From contig NZ_SAWZ01000002.1 in the NCBI RefSeq assembly GCF_004122095.1, forward strand, positions 62,001-126,000: DNA of 64,000 bases, in the 5' to 3' direction. Source of the stretch: Pseudoxanthomonas composti (GTDB lineage Bacteria; Pseudomonadota; Gammaproteobacteria; Xanthomonadales; Xanthomonadaceae). The notes beneath the pieces were generated by a model. That model was not told where the DNA came from. It was given only the letters and a program-made list of their open reading frames with translations, and did no database searches. The position numbers and the translations under genes are program-made. This document shows, piece after piece, positions 24,025 to 39,649 of this stretch. The number at the start of each line of letters is the position of its first letter. The first letter of the stretch is position 1.

Positions 24025-24324
24025 TCAGAGCTTGGACTTGGCCTTCAGCTCGCTGGCGAGTTTGCGTTGATCCGCGGGCGACAGCCGCGCCGCTGCCAGG
24101 ATGATGTCGGCCAGCACGTCGCTGTCTGCGAGGAGATAGGCCAGCGGAACGCCCAGTTCCTTGGCCAGCTTGGCGGCTGTTTCGAAATCGGGCTCCGAAG
24201 TTCCGCGCTCGTACCTTGTCACCCTGCTGGACACGACGTCCTCCGAGAGTCCGATTCTCCTGCCGAGTTCCCGTTGCGAGATGCCCAAAGCCAAGCGGGC
24301 CTGCTTCAGGCGCTTGGTGAACAT
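24025..24324 (-). CDS. XRE-family helix-turn-helix regulator
   Basis: About 99 residues from the ATG at 24324 (an in-frame ATG at 24348 is also possible; neither has a strong Shine-Dalgarno). The HTH spans residues 4-58: RLKQARLALGISQRELGRRI, then a recognition helix with VVSSRVTRYERG and a DFETAAKLAKELGV tail. The short basic C-terminus has no enzymatic domain. A perfect 7-bp inverted repeat upstream (24409-24427) may be its own operator. Which genes it controls is not known. Confidence 0.78.
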   Translation of the reverse strand: MFTKRLKQARLALGISQRELGRRIGLSEDVVSSRVTRYERGTSEPDFETAAKLAKELGVPLAYLLADSDVLADIILAAARLSPADQRKLASELKAKSKL

Positions 24325-24408
24325 GCTGCTGGGACTGGATGGCGACATCTGTCGAGGAGGACCCTTCCTGGAGTAGAGACAGGATGGCTTCCCTGACGTG
24401 CTTCTGTA

Positions 24409-24427
24409 TGCTACAACATGTGTAGCA
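24409..24427. promoter_or_regulatory. Inverted repeat upstream of the XRE gene, candidate operator
   Basis: TGCTACA and TGTAGCA, perfect 7-bp arms with a 5-nt spacer (ACATG), lie 85 bp before the chosen XRE start. Size and symmetry suit an XRE dimer; this is inference. Confidence 0.5.
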
Positions 24428-24459
24428 ACGGGCGACTGCATCTTTGAGCGGGCCGTTGT

Positions 24460-24469
24460 GGGGGGGGGG
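24460..24469. repeat. Ten-base G homopolymer
   Basis: An uninterrupted run of ten G lies between the divergent XRE gene and the lasso TonB receptor gene. It is not in the receptor reading frame. Confidence 0.85.
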
Positions 24470-24682
24470 ACTCACACAACAGACTGGGGATGAAAGCCAA
24501 TGGAGTGGAGGCATGTCAGTGCGCAGAGTTGCTTCATTAAATGTAGCGTTCGTGCCGAGGAGGCATTTGAGAGTCGGGCGCTGGAAGGCCGGGGGCGGCC
24601 GAACGCGAGGTGGAGAATCGACTCTTCATTTCCGCAAAGTGCGCATGTCTTAGAACGGCGGAAAGGCGAGGCGATCAGCCGG

Positions 24683-27070
24683 TTGTTTCGCCTCGTAACC
24701 GCTAGGGTAGAGGCCACGGCATGCGCCCTCAAAAGCAAGGTCTTTATCCTAACGCTCGTTCCGCTGCTGCTGACCCACAGCGTCGCAGCGCAGGAGGGGC
24801 AGGCTGACACCGGCACCGCGCAGCGCGACAGTCCGGAAGGCCAGGCAGCTCAATTGGATGTCGTCACCGTCACAGGCACCCGCATCAAAGGCGGTGCCTC
24901 GCCGTCCCCGGTTGTCGTGATCGGCAGCGAGCGCATCCGGGAAGAAGGCTTTACCGACCTGGGACAGGTCATCCGCAGCATCCCGCAGAACTTCTCTGGA
25001 GGGCAGAACCCAGGGGTGCTGATGGGCAATGTGGCCGGCGGTGGTTTGGCTAATCAGAACGTGACGGGGGGATCTGGACTGAACCTACGTGGCCTGGGTC
25101 CAGATGCCTCGCTGACGCTTCTCAACGGGCGGCGCATGTCCTATGGCGGCTTTGTGCAAGCGGTGGACATCAGCGCGATACCCGTCGAGGCGGTCGAACG
25201 TATAGAGATCATGGCCGACGGAGCATCCGCTATCTATGGTTCCGATGCGGTGGGAGGTGTGGGCAACGTCATCCTCAAGCGCGACATGGATGGGGTCACG
25301 GTCGGTGGGCGCTACGGCGCAGCGACGAGCGGTGGATTGGCGACCCGTGAGTACACGGCCAGCGCGGGGACCGTCTGGCCCACGGGCGGAGTGCTCGCTA
25401 CATTCAAGGACGCCTCGGTCGATCCGATCCATGCCCGCCAGCGCGGTTACACCGCTCAACTACCGGATCCGTACTCACTGTTTCCCGCCAGCGAGCTGCG
25501 TAGCGTCCTATTGAGTACATATCAGACACTGGGCGATCGATTCGATCTGCAAATCGATGCAGTGAGGACGCGCCGTGACCAGCGCTACGAGTATTACTAC
25601 GGAACGCGGGCGATCTATAACCTGCTGTCACCACAGACCACGACCACCTTCGTTGCTCCCAGTCTGGAATACCAGTTCGGATCATGGGGCCTGACCCTTG
25701 GAGGAGCCTGGGGCAAGGACGAGTACCTCAACAGACACGATGAAGTCTCGGCTGCGAGCGGCGCCGCAACGCCTTATCTATACGAGTGCTTCTGCAATGC
25801 CAGTCGCAGTGCCGAGCTCGGTGCGGAGGGGCCTGTGATGGATCTGGCGGCGGGAGAGGCTAGGCTGGCGCTGGGCGCAGGGCATCGCACGAATGAATTC
25901 TCCTGGACCAACCTCTACGCCGGCAGCGAAGTCATGCGAGGCGAGGAGGCCAGTCGCTTTGCTTATGCCGAGCTTAGCGTGCCACTGCTCGGGACGGAGA
26001 CTGGCAGAGGTCAGCAGCGGTTGGAGCTGACAGGCGCGGTGCGCCGGGAGAATTACGACAGCTTCGGCGGGGTCAGTACGCCCAAGCTGGGCCTGACCTA
26101 CAGCCCTAGCAAAGACTTGACGTTCAAGGCCTCGTGGGGGCGATCGTTCAAGGCACCGACGCTGTTTCAGCAATACCGGCCGCAGATCGTGCAAATGGGG
26201 CTGGCGCAGATCTATGGGAGTCCAGCGGCAGCGCCGGATGCGTTGATGATGATCTTTGCCGGTGGCAATCCGGACCTGTCTCCGGAAAGGGCACGGACCT
26301 GGTCCACCTCCCTGGTGGTACATCCCGATACGCTGCCGGGCTTCGAGGCAGAGCTGAGCTGGTTCGAGATCGACTACGCAGAGCGGGTGGTGGAGCCCAT
26401 CGGCAACTTCTACGAGGCGCTCAGCAGCCCGATCTACGCTGAATTTGTCACTCGTTCGCCTTCTGCTGACCAGCAGGCCGCCGCCATTTCCGACGCCAGC
26501 TACTTCTTCAACTTCACCGGTGTGACGTATGACCCGTCCAATGTGGTCGCATTACTGGATAGCCGCTATGTCAATGCGATGAAGCAAAGGATCCGTGGCG
26601 CTGACCTGTCAGCCTCATACAAGTTCGATGTGGGATCGAGCGAGCTCACGGTGAGGGGTGCGGCAAGTTGGTTAAATAGTCAGCAGCGAACGCGCGGTAC
26701 GCCGCAGTCCCGCGATCTGGCAGGCATGCTGCACAACCCGGCCAAACTCAACGCTCGCGCTGGTGCTGTGTGGGTTCATGGCGGGCTCACCGCGTCGACT
26801 TTTGTCACTTTCATAGACGGGGTGACCAACCCCAGTGACGGCATTAAGGGCAGCTCGTTCACCACGCTCGATGCAACGCTGAGCTACCGGACTGGCGAGC
26901 GGGCGGGGGTGCTCTCTGGCTTGGACCTGCAGTTGGCGGCGACGAATTTGCTGGACTGGGAGCCGCCGCGCTACGCCACGATCTCGCCCGAGTACGTGCC
27001 GCCCTACGACTCGACGAACTATTCGGCAATCGGGCGCTTCGTAGGCGTGTCGGTGTCTCGACACTGGTAG
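24683..27070 (+). CDS. TonB-dependent receptor of the lasso peptide locus
   Basis: An outer-membrane TonB-dependent receptor of about 795 residues. The mature N-terminus after VAAQEG leads to a TonB-box-like LDVVTVTGTRIKGG and a plug domain (PSPVVVIGSERIREEGF, LNLRGLGPDASLTLLNGRRM, VERIEIMADGASAIYGSDAVGG). The beta-barrel ends in the aromatic FVGVSVSRHW. The start is unclear: the frame is open from ATG 24500, but that 61-codon extension does not look like a signal peptide, so the TTG at 24683 is chosen. A receptor paired with a lasso isopeptidase is the known import arrangement; ligand identity is inferred. Confidence 0.85.
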   Translation: MFRLVTARVEATACALKSKVFILTLVPLLLTHSVAAQEGQADTGTAQRDSPEGQAAQLDVVTVTGTRIKGGASPSPVVVIGSERIREEGFTDLGQVIRSIPQNFSGGQNPGVLMGNVAGGGLANQNVTGGSGLNLRGLGPDASLTLLNGRRMSYGGFVQAVDISAIPVEAVERIEIMADGASAIYGSDAVGGVGNVILKRDMDGVTVGGRYGAATSGGLATREYTASAGTVWPTGGVLATFKDASVDPIHARQRGYTAQLPDPYSLFPASELRSVLLSTYQTLGDRFDLQIDAVRTRRDQRYEYYYGTRAIYNLLSPQTTTTFVAPSLEYQFGSWGLTLGGAWGKDEYLNRHDEVSAASGAATPYLYECFCNASRSAELGAEGPVMDLAAGEARLALGAGHRTNEFSWTNLYAGSEVMRGEEASRFAYAELSVPLLGTETGRGQQRLELTGAVRRENYDSFGGVSTPKLGLTYSPSKDLTFKASWGRSFKAPTLFQQYRPQIVQMGLAQIYGSPAAAPDALMMIFAGGNPDLSPERARTWSTSLVVHPDTLPGFEAELSWFEIDYAERVVEPIGNFYEALSSPIYAEFVTRSPSADQQAAAISDASYFFNFTGVTYDPSNVVALLDSRYVNAMKQRIRGADLSASYKFDVGSSELTVRGAASWLNSQQRTRGTPQSRDLAGMLHNPAKLNARAGAVWVHGGLTASTFVTFIDGVTNPSDGIKGSSFTTLDATLSYRTGERAGVLSGLDLQLAATNLLDWEPPRYATISPEYVPPYDSTNYSAIGRFVGVSVSRHW

Positions 27071-27181
27071 CCGAACCTGACCGGCGCCGGGGAGCAGCGG
27101 GGCTTCGAGGTGGCTGCACTACATGTCAGACGGGGTTGCTCGCGACGTCGTCCCCACCGTTCTGAATCTGGAGAGATTGCG

Positions 27182-29257
27182 ATGACCGCACCGGTTAGGC
27201 TTGCCTTGTGTGTGTTGCTGAGTGCAATAGGGTGCGCGAACGCGCAATCGATAACTCCACGCCGGCTGGTTGAAGTGGCCGATATGCAGGGGCCGGTCGT
27301 GTCACCGGATGGTTCACTGGTCGCGTTCCGGGTTGATCGGCCTTCCGTGGACGGCAATCGGTACGACTCGACTTGGTATGTGCAAGGTATCGAGGGTGGT
27401 ACGCTGCCCCGTCCCGTCGGACAAGGCGGTTTTCCGCTGCGGGACACAGCCGGTACGCCCCTTCCTGAGCCTGCGGTCTGGTCCCAGGATTGCCGCTGGA
27501 TCTATTACCGCGCTTCGGTCGATGGTCGGATCGACGTGTGGCGAGCCGCAGCCGATGGCTCACGCGCCGAGGTCGTGACGCGCGATGGCGCTGATGTTCG
27601 CCGGTTTCAGCTGGCCAAGGATGGCGATGCGCTGAAGTACGCAGTCGGCGCCACGCGCGAGGAGGTCATCGACGCGGAGGAGGTCGAATACGCACAGGGC
27701 TTTTTAATCGATGCTCGGGCCGCGATAGGCCAGGGTCTTTTTCGTTCCGGCCTGGTGGATGGCAGGCTTGGAACGCAGCGGCTAAGTGCCGATTGGTTCG
27801 GCCGCACACCCTTGCTGGCCGATAGGCCGGATCAGTGGAAAGCACTCGATCTGTCTAGCCGTACCAGTCGCGATCTAAAGGGCGACGAGCTGCCGGCGCG
27901 CTCACCCGAGGCTTCCGCTCTTAAATGGAGCGGGCTTGCGGCTTCACGCGTCGTCGTGGATCCCAAGAGCGATAGACTAGCTCTCTTGATTCCCGCCGGC
28001 GATGGGGCAGGACTAGCTGACAAGCCCAGCGTCGCCCTCTCCGTGCTCAGGGGCGCAGACGATCGGCAAGATACCCCCTGCGCCGTGGACCATTGCATGG
28101 ATCGAATGATCACCGGCGCGCTATGGCGGCCGGACAGCGATGAGGTGCTATTCACCGTGACCGATCCGCTGCGGACACATGCGCAGGCGATCCATGCATG
28201 GGACGTCTCGACGGGGGGTGTGAGGGAGGTTGTTTCGACGCAGGGCCTGATCAATGGGGGACGCGAACTCTCGAGCGATTGCGGAGTATCCGCCAGCGCC
28301 TTGGTCTGTGTGACCGCCGCGGCGAACCAGCCGCCGCGCCTGGAGCGCGTCGATGTGATGACAGGAGAACGCCGCATCCTGTTCAACCCCAATGCCGGAC
28401 TGGCTGTGGATCTGGACGCGCAGATACAGGTGAGGCCGTTGCGCTGGAGCGATGCCAATGGCCAGCAGTTCTCCGGGCAATTCTTTCCCGCCCGGGGCCA
28501 GGCCGGGCCGCCGCCGCTATTTGTGACCTACTACTCGTGTCCCGGATTCTTGCGCGGCGGGCTGGGCGATGAGTGGCCACTCGCACCTCTTGCTCAGCAC
28601 GGCATCGCTGTGCTGTGCATCAATCGCGTACACCCATTTGAGCTGGATGCAGTCAAGCGCTACGGACAAGGGCTCTCCGCGCTTGGCAGTGCCATTGAGC
28701 TGCTAGCCAGCCAAGGAGAGATTGATCGGAATCGGATCGGCATGGGTGGATTGAGTTTCGGAAGTGAAGTGACATTGTGGAGCATGGTCTACTCAGATCT
28801 TGTCACCGCCGGTTCAATCAGCACGCCCACGTTGACGCCGACCTATGCGCTTATGGGAGGGATCAAAGGCGACCCTTTCGAAAGAAGCCTGCAGGAGTAC
28901 TGGCAGATCGGCCTAAAGCCCCAGACTTTCGGGCAGTGGAAGCGGCTGTCCCACGACCAGAACCTGGATAAGATCTCTGCGCCGCTGCTAATGCAGATGT
29001 CGGAACAAGAATACCTGTACGCGCTGGACTACGCAGTTCCGCTGGTAAGAGACCGCCGGGCCGAGCTTTACGTCTTCGCCAACGAGCCTCATCAGAAGTT
29101 CCAGCCCCAGCATAAGCTCGCCGTCTACGAGCGAAACTTGGACTGGTTCCGCTTCTGGTTGTTGGACGAGGAGGACCCAGACCCTCTCAAGCGTGCGCAA
29201 TACGCTCGCTGGCGGATCATGCGCTCACAGCAAGACCACGACCGGTCCCAGCACTAG
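27182..29257 (+). CDS. Lasso peptide isopeptidase (S9/prolyl-oligopeptidase-like)
   Basis: A 691-residue enzyme with a signal peptide (ALCVLLSAIGCANA, then QS), an N-terminal beta-propeller-like region and a C-terminal alpha/beta hydrolase domain. The nucleophile is Ser525 in GMGGLSFGSE; the likely acid is Glu608/Glu610 in MSEQEYLYAL; the likely His is His637 in NEPHQKF. This layout and length match AtxE2-type isopeptidases that cut the lasso isopeptide bond and release linear peptide. The ATG at 27182 has GGAGAG upstream. It lies 111 bp after the receptor and its stop overlaps the convergent cyclase gene by 4 bp. Confidence 0.87.
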   Translation: MTAPVRLALCVLLSAIGCANAQSITPRRLVEVADMQGPVVSPDGSLVAFRVDRPSVDGNRYDSTWYVQGIEGGTLPRPVGQGGFPLRDTAGTPLPEPAVWSQDCRWIYYRASVDGRIDVWRAAADGSRAEVVTRDGADVRRFQLAKDGDALKYAVGATREEVIDAEEVEYAQGFLIDARAAIGQGLFRSGLVDGRLGTQRLSADWFGRTPLLADRPDQWKALDLSSRTSRDLKGDELPARSPEASALKWSGLAASRVVVDPKSDRLALLIPAGDGAGLADKPSVALSVLRGADDRQDTPCAVDHCMDRMITGALWRPDSDEVLFTVTDPLRTHAQAIHAWDVSTGGVREVVSTQGLINGGRELSSDCGVSASALVCVTAAANQPPRLERVDVMTGERRILFNPNAGLAVDLDAQIQVRPLRWSDANGQQFSGQFFPARGQAGPPPLFVTYYSCPGFLRGGLGDEWPLAPLAQHGIAVLCINRVHPFELDAVKRYGQGLSALGSAIELLASQGEIDRNRIGMGGLSFGSEVTLWSMVYSDLVTAGSISTPTLTPTYALMGGIKGDPFERSLQEYWQIGLKPQTFGQWKRLSHDQNLDKISAPLLMQMSEQEYLYALDYAVPLVRDRRAELYVFANEPHQKFQPQHKLAVYERNLDWFRFWLLDEEDPDPLKRAQYARWRIMRSQQDHDRSQH

Positions 29258-30996
29258 TGTTGATGTCGAATCCAGTTCTCGATCATGCACAGATCGAAAA
29301 CCCGGGCGAATGTCTCATTGCGCGCATGGTGCTCGCGGCGGAAGAAGGACTCCAGGGCGACGGTATCAAGTAGGCCGTGTTGCTGCAGCTCTCCTTCCAT
29401 GAGGAACTCGAGCATCGCTAGCCGATTCCTACGAAAGAGCGCGCCGGTGAAGTGTGCGAAAGTGCCTTTGCTTCTTCTGGCCACGACCTGCGGGGGGAGC
29501 GCATCGGAGAACGCGTCGCGTGCAACTGCGCGATTGATGCCACCGGCGATCCACATCCAGCTTGGTACTCGCAGGCAAGCCTCAATGACCGGCTGTGAGA
29601 GCAGAGGCATATGGAACGCGCGCAATCTGCTGCGCGGTAGGCCATCAATGAAGGATTGGGTGCCGGCCAGGTCGAATACGCGCTCCTGCACGCCCGTCAG
29701 CGCGCCGGCAGGTGCGTTGAACCATGGATGCGAGGGTGGCTTGCTTGTGACGGCGAAGGGTGTGAGAAAAGCGGTGTCAGCGACTCGGGCAGGGCGCGGC
29801 GTCAGCAGTAGTTTCTTGAGTGCCAGCCGGCCCGCCTTCCAGGTTGTGCAACGGTGAAGCTCAGCCAAGTCTCTGATCGCCGTGAAGCCAGAGAAGATCC
29901 CACTCGCTCTGAATGCGTCCGCCGCAGGCGAGGCGTTGCCGAGATAGCCAAAGACCGTGTCGCCCCCGCCGCCAGAGAGGTGGCATGTTGATGCGTGCCG
30001 GCGGGCGGATCTTTCCATCAGGCTGTCGGTAGCCTGTTGCAGCATCGTGACCGCAGGACTGGTCGGATTGGAGACAAGTGGGAAGTTGAAGGCGGCAGCG
30101 CCGAAGTCCAACTGCTCAACATGGAGCGGCGCGTCGAGGTCCGATGCGACTAAGCTTGCGTAAAATCGCTCGTCCGCGCCTGGAACAGGTGTCACCAGGG
30201 TGGAGCAGTTGATCTTGGCATCTGTACCGCGAAGACACGAGGCGATGATGGATGAGTCAAGTCCTCCGGATAGCTCAAGCAAGATCGAGGCTTCTCCAGT
30301 GGTCACCGCCCTGACGGCCATCTCCACGGTCTGGCGGATCCCGAGAGCTGCCTGCGTCGCGTCCTTGAAACGTCGCTCAGGTTGGACGAAGGTCCATGGG
30401 GACCAAGCGATTGATGTATGGGCGGACTGCGGGCCAAGCTTGATCACACAACCCGGCAAGAGCTCATTCACTCCGGCCAGCGCTGTCTGCCTCTTCTTCG
30501 AGTGGGGGTAGTTGAGGTAGTAGGGTATGGTGGTCCAATCGACGCGTCTCTGGTAAATCCCGAGACGCTCAGGTAGCGCGATGTCAGATGTAATGAAGGC
30601 AGGATCCGAGTCCGTGAGGTAAACACACGGGACTCCGCCCGAGGGGTCGCGAAGGACGGTGATGGGCTCTTGCGGGTCACCTCCGCCTTGGATGGCAACG
30701 TACTGCCCCCAGAAGTTACTCACCAAGTGGTCTCGGATCTCTGAAAGCTGGGTCAGTGCAGGGAACGAGGAGGCGTCGCGGATGCGATTTCCTGAATGAT
30801 CGAATAGCCGCCCGACGAGTAGCGTGCCGTTTGGGAGTTCCAGTAGATCCGTGGAGCTGCCCACGAAGAGGTCGAGTTTCGTGAGGGACGCACCTAGGCG
30901 TAGACCTGAAGCGCGTTGGACAGGCTTAAGGCCGAGGTCCAAGGCCTTGGTGAGCAAACCCGACCTCTTCAGAATGATCAGATAACCGAGATCCAT
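29254..30996 (-). CDS. Lasso peptide cyclase, asparagine synthetase-like (C protein)
   Basis: A 580-residue asparagine synthase B homologue expected to adenylate the side chain of a core Glu and form the isopeptide bond to Gly1. The ATP pyrophosphatase motif LELSGGLDSSIIAS lies near residue 240 and a second conserved motif is CHLSGGGGDTVFGY. The N-terminus has the degenerate glutaminase-like domain and begins MDLGYL, so the catalytic Cys2 of true glutamine-dependent enzymes is absent, as expected for lasso cyclases. The ATG shares one base with the stop of the B gene, indicating coupling. Confidence 0.9.
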   Translation of the reverse strand: MDLGYLIILKRSGLLTKALDLGLKPVQRASGLRLGASLTKLDLFVGSSTDLLELPNGTLLVGRLFDHSGNRIRDASSFPALTQLSEIRDHLVSNFWGQYVAIQGGGDPQEPITVLRDPSGGVPCVYLTDSDPAFITSDIALPERLGIYQRRVDWTTIPYYLNYPHSKKRQTALAGVNELLPGCVIKLGPQSAHTSIAWSPWTFVQPERRFKDATQAALGIRQTVEMAVRAVTTGEASILLELSGGLDSSIIASCLRGTDAKINCSTLVTPVPGADERFYASLVASDLDAPLHVEQLDFGAAAFNFPLVSNPTSPAVTMLQQATDSLMERSARRHASTCHLSGGGGDTVFGYLGNASPAADAFRASGIFSGFTAIRDLAELHRCTTWKAGRLALKKLLLTPRPARVADTAFLTPFAVTSKPPSHPWFNAPAGALTGVQERVFDLAGTQSFIDGLPRSRLRAFHMPLLSQPVIEACLRVPSWMWIAGGINRAVARDAFSDALPPQVVARRSKGTFAHFTGALFRRNRLAMLEFLMEGELQQHGLLDTVALESFFRREHHARNETFARVFDLCMIENWIRHQH

Positions 30997-31601
30997 CAGA
31001 TCACCTTGATCGGCGTGTAGGTACGCGTGTTGCCCAGCGTGTCGTTTAACACCATGTTCCCTCGCTGCACCCAGCTATGCGCGGTGAATGGATCGGTTGT
31101 AACGCCAAAGACCAAGTCGCTGTGGAAGCCTCGGCGTGCCAGGAAATGGATGAGCGAGATCGAATCGAGCAGGCAGCGTGTCGGTATCGGAACATGCGGG
31201 CGTGCTCGTCGAAAGATGGTGCAGGCGCGCAGCAAACTGCCTTCTTCGTCGACGGCATCGGTTGCACCAAAGTTGCCTTGACTTGCTCTAGAGGGCAGCT
31301 CGTCCAGAACGAGTCGCAACCTTTTCCGTTTGAGCTGGAGTCTGACGGACAGAGTGATTGCAGCCACTTCCAAGAAGGCGGGTAGTCCCCCGGACGACTC
31401 GAGCGTTGGCAGTTCCAGGATGCTACACGTCGATGATTGAATGGGCAGCTCTTCGATCGTCGCGCCCAAGGATTGCTCTGCCAAGAGGGCATCAGTGCGA
31501 TCGGAGGGCAGCGTGAAGTAACGATCGGCTTCGATGTCGAGAAAGATGGGGTTTCCATCGATCAGGCAGAAGCTGAGGTCTGGGGTGATGCTGAATGCCA
31601 T
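30996..31601 (-). CDS. Lasso peptide leader protease with RRE domain (B protein)
   Basis: A 201-residue fused B1-B2 protein. Residues 1-85 match the PqqD-like RRE that binds the leader (LCLIDGNPIFLDIEADRYFTL-like start); residues 100-201 are the transglutaminase-like peptidase with Cys143 (TRCLLDS), His175 (FTAHSWVQ) and Asp187 (VLNDT). The ATG at 31601 is preferred since GGGAG lies 5 nt upstream and the hairpin at 31621-31642 sits just before it. A GTG at 31652 overlapping the precursor stop would add 17 residues. Confidence 0.9.
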   Translation of the reverse strand: MAFSITPDLSFCLIDGNPIFLDIEADRYFTLPSDRTDALLAEQSLGATIEELPIQSSTCSILELPTLESSGGLPAFLEVAAITLSVRLQLKRKRLRLVLDELPSRASQGNFGATDAVDEEGSLLRACTIFRRARPHVPIPTRCLLDSISLIHFLARRGFHSDLVFGVTTDPFTAHSWVQRGNMVLNDTLGNTRTYTPIKVI

Positions 31602-31620
31602 ACGCGCTCCCACACGGGAG

Positions 31621-31642
31621 AGGCGCACCTCGCGGTGCGCCT
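31621..31642 (-). promoter_or_regulatory. GNRA-tetraloop hairpin between lasso precursor and protease genes
   Basis: Perfect 9-bp arms, AGGCGCACC and GGTGCGCCT, enclose GCGA when read on the coding (minus) strand. It starts 6 nt after the precursor stop. Hairpins after lasso A genes are known to favour precursor mRNA over BC mRNA; no T tract follows, so it is a stabiliser or partial attenuator rather than a full terminator. Confidence 0.75.
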
Positions 31643-31648
31643 CGTTGA

Positions 31649-31795
31649 TCACTCCTCGGAGATTTCGGCAGGGCTTTGCCGGCCGATCATTTCACCCGGA
31701 ACCGCACCGCCTCCGAGTGTCTCCACGCTCGCCACACCGAGCACGATCACGTCCTGCTGCGGCGCCGGGGTCTTGCTTTCGTTGCGCTTGTCCAT
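31649..31795 (-). CDS. Lasso peptide precursor (A gene)
   Basis: A 48-residue peptide with a strong AAGGAG Shine-Dalgarno 6 nt before ATG 31795. The leader is residues 1-27 and ends VLGVASVETL, with Thr26 at the penultimate position required for lasso leaders. The core starts at Gly28: GGGAVPGE forms the predicted eight-residue ring through Gly1-Glu8, and MIGRQSPAEISEE is the loop and tail. Position 7 is Gly and position 9 Met, so Glu8 is the only acid at a usual ring position. Hand-summed monoisotopic mass of the lasso form is 2051.96 Da. Cotranscribed with the B and C genes. Confidence 0.88.
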   Translation of the reverse strand: MDKRNESKTPAPQQDVIVLGVASVETLGGGAVPGEMIGRQSPAEISEE

Positions 31796-31813
31796 TTCGT
31801 TCTCCTTGGTGGA

Positions 31814-31834
31814 TGCCATGGCGAATCCATGGCA
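31814..31834 (-). promoter_or_regulatory. 5'-UTR stem-loop or operator before the lasso precursor
   Basis: Perfect 8-bp arms TGCCATGG and CCATGGCA around a 5-nt spacer, 19 bp upstream of the precursor ATG and just above its Shine-Dalgarno. It could be an mRNA hairpin or a protein-binding palindrome. Confidence 0.5.
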
Positions 31835-31849
31835 GCCACAGCGTAGGAG

Positions 31850-31885
31850 ACGGAATTTTCTATATTCAAATAGTTAATGCGTGAT
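31850..31885 (-). promoter_or_regulatory. AT-rich probable promoter region of the lasso operon
   Basis: The only strongly AT-rich stretch between the GntR gene and the precursor; the coding strand reads TTAACTATTTGAATATAG then AAAATTCC. I cannot assign convincing -35/-10 boxes. Parts of it (AACTATTT, TTGAATAT) recur beside the palindrome upstream of the GntR gene. Confidence 0.35.
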
Positions 31886-31930
31886 CTTTGACTGATTCCG
31901 AGCTGCCGATGCGGACCACGGCTTACCCGC

Positions 31931-32560
31931 CTATGGAACGCCGTCTCTGCGGTCGATCAGCAAGGCGACGATGCGCGGCACCAGCTGCTTGCGTCGTGCG
32001 TGGTAGGCGCGGATGGCATCGCGTAGCGCCTCCGATTCCTGTCGCTGCCACAAGGCGCTGAGCTCGGTCAGCTCTTCCAGTGCGTGGTCCAGCAGCCCGG
32101 ACTTGGCGCGTCTGATGGGTGCCAGGCGGTCATTGTGGCGCTTGATGGTCTGGTGCAGGAGCCGATGGCCGCTGGAGAGGGCGATGGCGTTGAACAGCTG
32201 CCAGGTGCTCTTGGGCACATCGATATCATGCGCGAGAAGCTCGAACGCGCTCGGCCGGCGCACCGTCGCGTTGAAGCCGATGTCGCAGGCCATCAACAGC
32301 AGCCGCTCCATGAGGTCGTAGAGCTCGTGCAGGGCGACCTCATTCAACAGTGGAACCTGCAGTCCGCTGCGCGCGTGGTCGATGATCACGCCTTCCCCCA
32401 CCAGGTGGTGCAGGGCTGCGCGGACCGGCGTCTGGCTGACCTTGAGCTCTCTGGCCAGCGTGGCCGGGTCGATGCGCTGGCCTGGTGGATAGCGTCCGGA
32501 CTGCAGGTCGCGCCTGACCTGGCCGTAGACCAGCGCCTTCTTGGAGTGAGAAGTGCCCAT
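31931..32560 (-). CDS. GntR-family regulator (FCD subfamily)
   Basis: A 209-residue regulator with an N-terminal winged helix (VYGQVRRDLQSGRYPPGQRI, ARELKVSQTPVRAALHHL, residues 13-65) and a helical C-terminal ligand domain (EVALHELYDLMERLLLMACDIGF onward) of the FCD type. The ATG at 32560 follows GGAGG; an upstream in-frame codon at 32587 is less likely. It lies 135 bp upstream of the lasso precursor in the same direction. That it controls the lasso genes is inference from position. Confidence 0.85.
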   Translation of the reverse strand: MGTSHSKKALVYGQVRRDLQSGRYPPGQRIDPATLARELKVSQTPVRAALHHLVGEGVIIDHARSGLQVPLLNEVALHELYDLMERLLLMACDIGFNATVRRPSAFELLAHDIDVPKSTWQLFNAIALSSGHRLLHQTIKRHNDRLAPIRRAKSGLLDHALEELTELSALWQRQESEALRDAIRAYHARRKQLVPRIVALLIDRRDGVP

Positions 32561-37706: not shown

Positions 37707-38612
37707 TCACTCGCCCGGCTTGGCGCCTTCCACCGGGGCATTGGTGGCCGCGCGCCTTGCCAGGGTCGCCTCGCGATGGGCGATGTAGGCGGTGGAGCCC
37801 AGGATGATGGCCGCACCCACCGCGGTCCACCGATCCAGGCGCTCGCCGAACAGCAGCCAGCCGAAGAAGATCACCACCGGCAGCTGCATGAAGCTGATCG
37901 GCTGCAGCGCCGAGACTTCCCCAAGCTTCAGGGCGCGGGTCCAGAACAGCTGGCCCAGCGTGCCGAACACGCCCGTGCAGGCCAGCCACACCCAGGCCAG
38001 GCCCTGCGGCCAGGTCCACTGGAACAGCGCGGGCACCAGCGACATCGGCACCCAGAAGGCATAGGTGTAGAACACCACCGTGTCCGGCGGGTCCAGCCTG
38101 GACAGCTGCTTGATCTGGATGGCGACCACGGCGCTGATCACCGCCGCGGCCACGGCCACCAGCAGGCCGGGAGAGAACGAGCTGGACCCTGGCCGCAGGA
38201 TCACCAGCACGCCGATGAAGCCGGCGGCCACCGCCAGCCACCGGCGCAGGCGCACCGGCTCGTGCAGCCACAGCACCGCGGCGATGGTCACGAACAGCGG
38301 CGTGGAATAGGACAGCGACACCGCTTGCGACAGCGGCAGGTGGCCGATGGCCCAGAAGCCGCACAGCATCGAGGCCAGGCCGATCGCCGTGCGCAGGAAG
38401 TAGCGCCCGACGTGGCGGGTGCGCGGCAGCGGCTTGCCCCTGCCCAGCACCATCGGCAGCAGCGCCAGCATGCCGAAGGCGTTGCGGAAGAAGGCGACCT
38501 CGGTGGTCTCCACCGTGGCCGAGGACAGGCGGATGCACACGGCCATCAGGCCGAAGGCCATGGTGCTGGCGAGCATGAACATGGCCGCGCGCAGCGGGTG
38601 CGCGGTGCTCAC
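37707..38612 (-). CDS. DMT superfamily transporter (EamA domains)
   Basis: A 301-residue inner-membrane permease with about ten helices and two EamA repeats (first from residue 10, second near 150). The first repeat contains VETTEVAFFRNAFG and the second EVSALQPISFMQLPVVIFFGWLL. The GTG start at 38612 overlaps the murB stop (GTGA). Substrate unknown; many relatives export amino acids or metabolites. Confidence 0.84.
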   Translation of the reverse strand: MSTAHPLRAAMFMLASTMAFGLMAVCIRLSSATVETTEVAFFRNAFGMLALLPMVLGRGKPLPRTRHVGRYFLRTAIGLASMLCGFWAIGHLPLSQAVSLSYSTPLFVTIAAVLWLHEPVRLRRWLAVAAGFIGVLVILRPGSSSFSPGLLVAVAAAVISAVVAIQIKQLSRLDPPDTVVFYTYAFWVPMSLVPALFQWTWPQGLAWVWLACTGVFGTLGQLFWTRALKLGEVSALQPISFMQLPVVIFFGWLLFGERLDRWTAVGAAIILGSTAYIAHREATLARRAATNAPVEGAKPGE

Positions 38613-39649
38613 CACTGCGCTCCGACCAGCCGTGGCTCGGGCTCGATCGCCACGCCGAAGCGCGCCTGCACGGCCCCGGCAATGCGCCGGGCCAGCGCCA
38701 GCAGCTGCGCGCCGCTGGCATGGCCATGGTTGACCAGCACCAGGGCATGGCTGGGCGCCACGCCGGCATCGCCCTCGCGGTATCCCTTGAAGCCGCAGGC
38801 CTCGATCATCCACGCCGCCGAGAGCTTGCGCGTGGCATCGCCATCGCCGCCGAATACCGGCAGGGCCGGCCACTGGGCCAGCAGCGCGGCGGCCTGGCCG
38901 GCCGGCACGATGGGGTTCTTGAAGAAGCTGCCGGCGTTGCCCAGCACGGCCGGGTCGGGCAGCTTGCGGCGCCGGATGCGGATGACCGCCTCGGCCACGT
39001 CGGCACAGCCAGGGCTTTCAATGCTCATGGCCTGCAGCTCCTCGGCCACGCCGGCGTAATCCACCCGCGGCGCGCGCTGCAGCGGCAGGGCGAACTCCAC
39101 GGCCGTCACCAGCCAGCGCCCGGGCTGCTGCTTGAACACGCTGTCGCGGTAGGCGAAGTGGCAGGCCGCGCGGTCCAGCCAATCCTGGCGCCCGGCCTGC
39201 AGGTCCCAGACCTGCACGCGGGCGATGAACTCGCCGACCTCGCTGCCGTAGGCGCCGATGTTCTGGATCGGACTGGCGCCCACGGTGCCGGGAATCAGCG
39301 CCAGATTCTCCAGCCCGCACAGCCCCTGCTGCAGCGACCACATGACCAGCCGGTGCCAGGACACGCCAGCCTGCGCCAGCACGATGGCATGGCCCTGACG
39401 GTCGGCCGCGCGGCTGATGGCCTCGGTACGGAACACCAGCACTGCCCCGGGCGCATCGTCGGCCAGCAGCACGTTGCTGCCGCTGCCCAGCACCATCCAC
39501 GGGGCGCCGGTCATCTGCGGCATGCCCAGCACGGCGGGCAGGGCGGCGGTGTCGTACAGCTCCAGCAGGCACGGCGTGCGCGCCGCGACGCCGAAGGTGT
39601 TGAGGGACTGCAGGGACGCGTCGGGGGTCAGGCGCCAGGCATCGGTCAT
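38609..39649 (-). CDS. murB: UDP-N-acetylenolpyruvoylglucosamine reductase
   Basis: A 346-residue FAD enzyme of peptidoglycan precursor synthesis, of the longer E. coli-like class. Conserved sequences include [55 protein letters not shown] with the catalytic Ser, and [15 protein letters not shown] 39649 overlaps the pyrD stop by 4 nt. Confidence 0.95.

Follow-up and report, generated by a model that had tools for sequence, protein, structure and literature searches.

A lasso peptide locus of Pseudoxanthomonas composti and the producer and receiver forms of its receptor–isopeptidase unit

What purpose is served by a lasso peptide whose biosynthesis genes adjoin those of a TonB-dependent receptor, which could take it up, and of an isopeptidase, which could open it? 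The question is raised by a locus of Pseudoxanthomonas composti (assembly GCF_004122095.1, contig NZ_SAWZ01000002.1, positions 62,001 to 126,000 of the forward strand; this stretch of 64,000 nucleotides is the window, and coordinates are counted from its first base). The role of isopeptidase-class lasso peptides has been called enigmatic (PMC9266682). We propose, with a probability of about 0.72, that the locus represents one form, the producer's, of a system for releasing and retrieving a lasso peptide, the other form of which senses and imports the peptides of neighbours.

The isopeptidase-type lasso peptide locus was complete. It comprised two convergent operons lying end to end, with the receptor and isopeptidase genes (R–E) on the plus strand and GntR–A–B–C on the minus strand, and had the following features.

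24025 to 24324, minus strand: XRE-family (Cro/CI-type helix-turn-helix) regulator (PF01381, E value 1.7e-15), divergent from the receptor gene
24410 to 24426, no strand: palindrome GCTACAACATGTGTAGC, predicted XRE operator, matching RCTACRN5YGTAGY
24683 to 27070, plus strand: TonB-dependent receptor R (PF07715, 5.4e-17; PF00593, 5.8e-34); the TTG start is uncertain
27182 to 29257, plus strand: lasso peptide isopeptidase E (NF033523, 611 bits), in an open frame from GTG 27110
29254 to 30996, minus strand: lasso cyclase C, asparagine-synthetase-like (PF00733, 2.4e-30)
30996 to 31652, minus strand: B protein (NF033537, 78 bits; PF13471), with a GTG start and an alternative ATG at 31604
31649 to 31795, minus strand: lasso precursor A of 48 aa, with leader MDKRNESKTPAPQQDVIVLGVASVETL and core GGGAVPGEMIGRQSPAEISEE
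31931 to 32560, minus strand: GntR-family regulator ahead of the precursor (PF00392, 2.8e-12)

The stop codons of E and C overlapped, and the stop of the precursor gene overlapped the GTG start of B. The original prediction, made from the sequence alone, had already placed the precursor, B, C, receptor, isopeptidase and GntR genes, and profile matches bore it out for the B, C, receptor, isopeptidase and GntR genes (NF033523, NF033537, PF00733, PF07715/PF00593 and PF00392; the curated cut-offs are 400 bits for NF033523 and 33 bits for NF033537). Its bounds of 24683..32560 were too narrow, since the locus extends to the left to the XRE gene and the palindrome, both of which had been missed. The ATG at 24324 was taken as the presumed start of the XRE gene, the open frame of which extends to 24441; with this start the palindrome sits between XRE and R.

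The isopeptidase was the sole NF033523 match above the cut-off in its genome and matched AtxE2 in the PDB (5txc, E value 1.2e-47). The serine of its GLSFG motif aligned with the AtxE2 serine that is replaced by Ala in 5txe, the alignment columns of the His and Glu residues were conserved, and Ser549, Glu632, Glu634 and His661 were invariant in nine loci. The better start is presumed to be ATG 27182, which gives an apparent Sec-type signal peptide, and E is therefore probably periplasmic; by a crude pattern, a hydrophobic stretch stood at the signal-peptide position in 57 of the 63 relatives with a recognizable mature start. The receptor possessed plug and barrel and, according to our own STN model, no STN domain, and should therefore not signal through FecR. 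No FecI or FecR match was obtained at 1e-4 anywhere in the window. Between the palindrome and the start codon of the receptor gene lies a run of ten G (24460–24469), where slippage might switch receptor expression on and off.

Receptor–isopeptidase units also occurred without biosynthesis genes in other genomes. A search of named genomes yielded 76 loci, and 16 genomes were checked individually; R–E units without an adjoining precursor, B or C were termed receivers and units with them producers. No C, B or precursor lay beside R–E in 14 of the 76 loci.

L038, L040-L045, L047, L056, L059, L068, L069, L080 and L090: orphan R–E loci; L044 and L080 are overlapping stretches of a single contig

Isopeptidases and cyclases stood at 6:1 in Rhodanobacter sp. 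B05, 5:2 in Luteimonas saliphila, 3:0 in Luteimonas sp. Y-2-2-4F, 1:0 in Luteimonas kalidii and 1:0 in a Rhodanobacter metagenome-assembled genome (MAG). The last three (two isolates and one MAG among the 16 genomes checked) gave no B or C match; both of these Luteimonas assemblies were 100 % complete, with 5 % contamination in one. In Rhodanobacter B05 a full locus was followed by five further R–E units in tandem, and extracytoplasmic function (ECF) sigma factors and FecR proteins lay between the tandem units (PF08281/PF04542 and PF04773 in the examples, with STN as PF07660). The genome of L040 carried A–B–C–GntR apart from R–E, on a different contig, and the core encoded there closely resembled the core of the nearest producer, so that L040 is best regarded as a split producer; it was the only XRE-type orphan and was still counted among the receivers. 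In a family sample 49 of 395 genomes had E, and among the matches listed 8 of 61 E matches, in five of the 49 genomes, had no adjoining C (adjacency being taken from tables); one genome lacked E but had a distant C (30 %). Because no more than two or three candidates per genome were scored in the family and order searches, copy numbers from them are lower bounds. No publication on receptor–isopeptidase units without biosynthesis genes was found in a search that left most subscription literature outside, and such units may have been published.

Units that were duplicates or were covered by longer stretches were dropped ahead of tree building and counting (L053, L075, L084, L110-L112, L092, L044, L080 and L047), as were, outside the alphaproteobacteria, three producers and two orphans with short upstream sequence and one unit with short downstream sequence. 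Alphaproteobacteria were excluded from the two-by-two counts, leaving 102 assessable units, 19 receivers and 83 producers, in the combined sets. The validation set contained 39 units, after 28 that were >97 % identical to others and four that were cut short had been removed from 71. Two lasso loci had unusual hosts. L052, of Lysobacterales type, occupies a contig of 7.9 kb in the assembly of a Gram-positive bacterium (Paenibacillus dendritiformis) and is probably contamination; L078, a producer locus from the betaproteobacterium Pseudothauera nasutitermitis, lies inside the Lysobacterales set, carries FecI–FecR and STN, and looks like an acquisition by transfer.

The two forms differed in regulation. 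An STN receptor was present in 19 of 19 receivers whereas only 16 of 83 producers had one, FecR was found in 16 of 19 receivers and 5 of 83 producers, and the XRE regulator showed the opposite distribution (1 of 19 and 45 of 83, respectively). In the first set alone, FecR occurred in 15 of 18 receivers and 5 of 45 producers (p 7.6e-8) and STN in 18 of 18 and 11 of 45 (p 1.3e-8); the STN figure comes from an iterated model, used after the reading frame of receptor L038 had been picked by eye, and with an earlier, stricter model the figures were 14 of 18 and 10 of 45. Among the 38 producers of the validation set, none had FecR and five had STN, and its one receiver had both. By their predicted domains, the receiver units appear to possess the parts of FecI–FecR cell-surface signalling, namely an ECF sigma factor, FecR and an STN receptor.

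The XRE regulator stood in the same place in six of the eight other loci of the genus Pseudoxanthomonas, as it did in 45 of the 83 assessable producers. The palindrome RCTACRN5YGTAGY had a single site in the window (chance mean 0.01). With at most one mismatch, TGCTACAN5TGTAGCA had one site in the genome, an exact one, compared with three for a reversed control pattern, and rarity of the palindrome alone therefore proves nothing. It was found upstream of R in 43 of 48 XRE-type producers, in 2 of 33 producers without an XRE match and in none of five FecR-type producers, 19 receivers or 19 alphaproteobacterial units; the rate in shuffled sequences, which preserved base make-up only, was 0.0004. 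The palindrome was discovered on 81 producers that were also counted, and therefore only the contrasts with receivers and with XRE-less producers are informative.

Comparison of receptors with cores indicated which peptides some receivers might use. Among 47 producers with a core, all 12 pairs with a receptor identity of ≥75 % had cores resembling each other (similarity 0.55–1.0, tail excluded), whilst the median core similarity of pairs under 60 % receptor identity was 0.09; the peptides of some receivers are therefore predictable. A unit of Rhodanobacter B05 shared 92.9 % identity in plug and barrel and 85.9 % in E with L081 of Rhodanobacter thiooxydans, the core of which we take to be rhodanodin; L. 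kalidii shared 92.3 and 90.2 %, respectively, with L. saliphila, and Stenotrophomonas sp. MMGLT7 shared 83.9 and 80.8 % with Xanthomonas sp. AmX2. The 110 residues before the plug were only 26.7–34.2 % alike across these three pairs (34.2 % for B05 and L081, 26.7 % for L. kalidii and L. saliphila), and it was the receiver side that bore STN. On the rule that highly identical receptors go with similar cores, the predicted ligand is the L081 peptide for the B05 unit and the L072 peptide for L. kalidii; for the units of MMGLT7 and Y-2-2-4F it is a peptide of xanthomonin-like type. In B05, MMGLT7, the L068 MAG, Y-2-2-4F and L. kalidii the genome's own core differed from the predicted one, or B and C were absent.

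If receivers do recognize foreign peptides, the peptide might be purely a signal, on which they eavesdrop via STN, FecR and FecI and which the isopeptidase clears. This view, to which we give a rather low probability, agrees with the scattering of receivers and with receptors that track the peptide at high identity, and FecI–FecR–STN is a sensing device in FecA-type receptors; FecI systems mostly serve nutrient uptake, however. The original prediction had favoured signalling or scavenging over plain killing. Uptake and opening are indeed likelier than plain killing, and signalling and scavenging would both be compatible with the window and with the receivers. Defence is an unlikely explanation, in which receivers sense the toxic lasso peptide of a competitor and destroy it in the periplasm, the producer's isopeptidase conferring self-immunity: sensing coupled to a destroying enzyme would suit detoxification, and in the five genomes examined the predicted peptide of the receiver was not the genome's own, but an energy-driven import receptor would be a costly means of removing a toxin. 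A review describes isopeptidase-type lasso peptides as lacking antimicrobial activity, with the exception of astexin-1 (PMC9266682).

A further alternative is that the locus is an ordinary lasso cluster of the isopeptidase type, new only in its core, and that its XRE/FecR difference is lineage-specific wiring with no functional meaning. A GntR regulator, isopeptidase and TonB receptor by A–B–C are near-constant for the class (PMC9266682), and on an isopeptidase tree of 89 rows the producer/receiver state was indeed weakly clustered, since 22 of 500 label shuffles needed as few changes as were observed (shuffled labels needed ~21). Receivers were nevertheless scattered among producers, the state requiring 18 changes, at least 14 of them on well-supported branches. 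In ten independent pairs differing in state, STN accompanied the receiver in 9.5 on average (median p 0.002) and FecR did so in 8.2 (median p 0.008, at most 0.07), the opposite never occurring for either. XRE was on the producer's side in 8.2 of these pairs and on the receiver's in 1.0 (median p 0.04). Wiring thus tracked producer/receiver state more than lineage, and we regard the ordinary-cluster explanation as improbable, to much the same degree as defence.

The least probable explanation, and a very unlikely one, is that the orphan units are full loci in decay, now without A, B and C and with no role for foreign peptides: they do occur in genomes and genera mostly with full loci and sometimes adjoin one, but the trimmed receiver sequences contained no stop (before trimming, one B05 unit had a TGA in its match), no A, B or C match lay beside them, they bear the STN and mostly the FecI–FecR that their nearest producers lack, B05 has five units in tandem, and dN/dS was 0.13–0.31 in 16 of 16 comparisons from eight receiver–producer pairs, so that purifying selection keeps both genes. 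Mere relics were rejected on this ratio and on the contrast between the plug–barrel and pre-plug regions.

Several observations weigh against the division into producers and receivers that import foreign peptides. The units are not independent, the receivers having been drawn from few genomes, and the validation set added 38 producers yet only one assessable receiver. Three of the 19 receivers had no FecR in the expected place and strand, FecR was present in the five producers mentioned above, and 33 producers had no XRE match. In the alphaproteobacteria, 14 of 15 producers had FecR and 15 of 15 had STN, which agrees with how the class has been described (PMC9266682); the producer/receiver split therefore belongs to one clade. 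Receivers often shared their genome with the genes for another lasso peptide, and many had no close producer (E ~59–68 %). Over all 1081 producer pairs the Spearman correlation between receptor and core was 0.08 (0.37 for E), and the nearest producer by receptor was the best core match in only 22 of 47 cases.

The genes, catalytic residues, palindrome and two forms, with the statistics on them, are read from sequence, and it is from these that we infer that the ring is closed, that the peptide is exported, taken up and opened in the periplasm, that XRE binds its operator, that cargo may be carried and that receivers use foreign peptides. B would cleave the leader after Thr-Leu and C would close Gly1 onto Glu8 to give a threaded peptide, which would leave the cell by a route not assigned to any gene. 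The TonB receptor would import the peptide, to which a cargo is perhaps bound, and once in the periplasm the peptide would have its Gly1–Glu8 bond cut by the exported isopeptidase. The XRE protein would control the R–E operon via the palindrome and GntR would control A–B–C. A receiver, having R–E alone with STN and usually FecI–FecR, would detect the lasso peptides of others, induce itself and take them up. Given the receiver units in other genomes, uptake is likely to be the central function.

B had been read as an RRE joined to a Cys-His-Asp peptidase, and the peptidase part held: PF13471 was present in 26 of 26 B proteins and Cys144 and His176 were invariant in them, the Asp being a majority residue only. 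The RRE part is presumed from a conserved N-terminal block, and is kept as such because no RRE/PqqD model in Pfam matched and the B profile had no match in the PDB. The cyclase was 42–46 % identical to C of the eight other genus loci. In line with the original prediction, there was no ABC exporter among the 14 distinct window proteins scanned against Pfam between 20.7 and 38.9 kb, a selection of the open frames there, which included an EamA-type transporter at 37707–38873. Terminator and sigma-70 scans found nothing.

The window precursor has Thr at position −2, and Glu8 is the only acid in core positions 7–9, so that a Gly1–Glu8 ring of eight residues is predicted; a xanthomonin-type ring of seven residues was rejected, there being no acid at position 7. 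The mass of the full-length lasso peptide was computed as 2051.958 Da (monoisotopic; [M+2H] 1026.986), in agreement with the 2051.96 Da and ~1026.99 predicted originally. A shorter peptide may be the main product instead, as xanthomonin I and benenodin-1 are known in tail-shortened form, the former lacking four tail residues in its crystal structure and the latter having been isolated five residues short (2026 review, PMC13352647), and a tail-trimmed product is likely to form, with a calculated mass of 1922.916, 1793.873, 1706.841 or 1593.757 Da. The benenodin family model NF033522 gave 30.8 bits with the window precursor (E value 1.9e-7), under the curated cut-off of 33, and 39.2–68.8 bits with the four relatives tried; an E value of 5.6e-18 was obtained with a model built from the precursor itself and its relatives, which is not an independent test. 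Relatives of the precursor occurred in loci having C, except for L064 and L148, both of which are cut by a contig end. All 93 distinct cores, including two from alphaproteobacteria (Sphingopyxis), began with Gly; within positions 7–9 an acid stood at 7 only in 51 and at 8 only in 18, and the tail motif (GISEE and variants) was kept in 91. The precursor had no match among PLSDB plasmids, and the string GGGAVPGE was not found in the literature searched.

Two precursors of Luteimonas were unusual. In Luteimonas lumbrici (L061:13830-13501, minus strand) a single precursor contains three consecutive lasso cores, every one with its own leader motif in front (LGTASTETR, LGIASEETR and IGIASEETQ), and NF033522 matched three stretches of it. 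The core tail of the window precursor (31649–31795) and its relatives resembles the leader motif LGVASVET, as if the conserved tail could be a remnant of a repeated leader and L061 an intermediate. In Luteimonas granuli (L093:5810-5595, minus strand) a lone precursor lies by a receptor with no adjoining isopeptidase or cyclase, and a full locus is nearby.

Among 38 genomes of the genus, the isopeptidase (E<1e-190) and the cyclase (E<1e-140) occurred in the same eight, that of the window included, and these held eight loci besides the window's. R–E faced C–B–A–GntR in all eight of these, with GntR at the same position. The genes in 24025–31795 have a G+C content of 58–65 %, compared with 67 % for the window, and tRNA genes for Gly and Cys lie 2.5 kb to the left of the locus; together with the patchy presence in the genus these are possible signs of transfer. 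The locus may have been inserted beside this tRNA pair; a neighbouring oxidoreductase was matched in only one of 37 other genus genomes (at 1e-60).

The original prediction had compared the locus to the xanthomonin and astexin clusters. The isopeptidase class was right; the predicted ring has eight residues rather than seven, and XRE with its palindrome takes the place of FecI, FecR and STN. Like the window, the alphaproteobacterial astexin-2/-3 and benenodin loci (AtxE2 and BenE) have A–B–C, an AtxE2-type isopeptidase and a TonB receptor, with GntR ahead of the precursor and no ABC exporter (PMC9266682). They possess a sigma/anti-sigma pair, whereas the window has neither the pair nor STN. 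Such a pair was stated for the isopeptidase clusters then known (PMC9266682), but we regard it as non-defining, the window having an AtxE2-family isopeptidase by A, B and C, a TonB receptor and GntR. A lasso peptide predicted in Stenotrophomonas acidaminiphila shares the leader ...VIVLGVASVET and the tail ISEE with the window precursor, but has a ring of seven and another core (PMC4675943). Xanthomonins I–III of Xanthomonas have the same gene order as the window, a leader and GISEE-type tail like those of locus L037, and seven-residue rings, unlike the window core. The cores of L037 (GGPLAGEE...) are presumably near xanthomonin I.

Siderophore receptors such as FecA, including those for xenosiderophore uptake, signal via FecI–FecR, and the receiver units resemble these systems in having a sigma factor, an anti-sigma factor and an STN receptor; they differ in being paired with a lasso isopeptidase, and the window itself has no signalling parts. 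A siderophore-like cargo role was proposed earlier (Chekan 2016, cited in PMC11006600), and a Sphingomonas mutated in its lasso B gene is reported to have become unable to use phenanthrene (PMC11006600). We hold it somewhat better than an even chance that isopeptidase-class lasso peptides are goods or signals shared between bacteria, that the receptor of producers does not signal and is controlled by XRE, that receivers with STN and FecI–FecR detect, import and open foreign ones in a piracy or eavesdropping parallel to xenosiderophore uptake, and that at high identity the receptor tells which peptide is used.

The window locus belongs to a known class, and its distinct wiring and core are what is new. 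It is of value chiefly for having pointed to the division between producers and receivers in some Lysobacterales. Receivers that match particular producers, some of them in genomes without detectable B or C, make the function of the class testable, and the XRE palindrome offers a second handle, on the control of uptake in producers.

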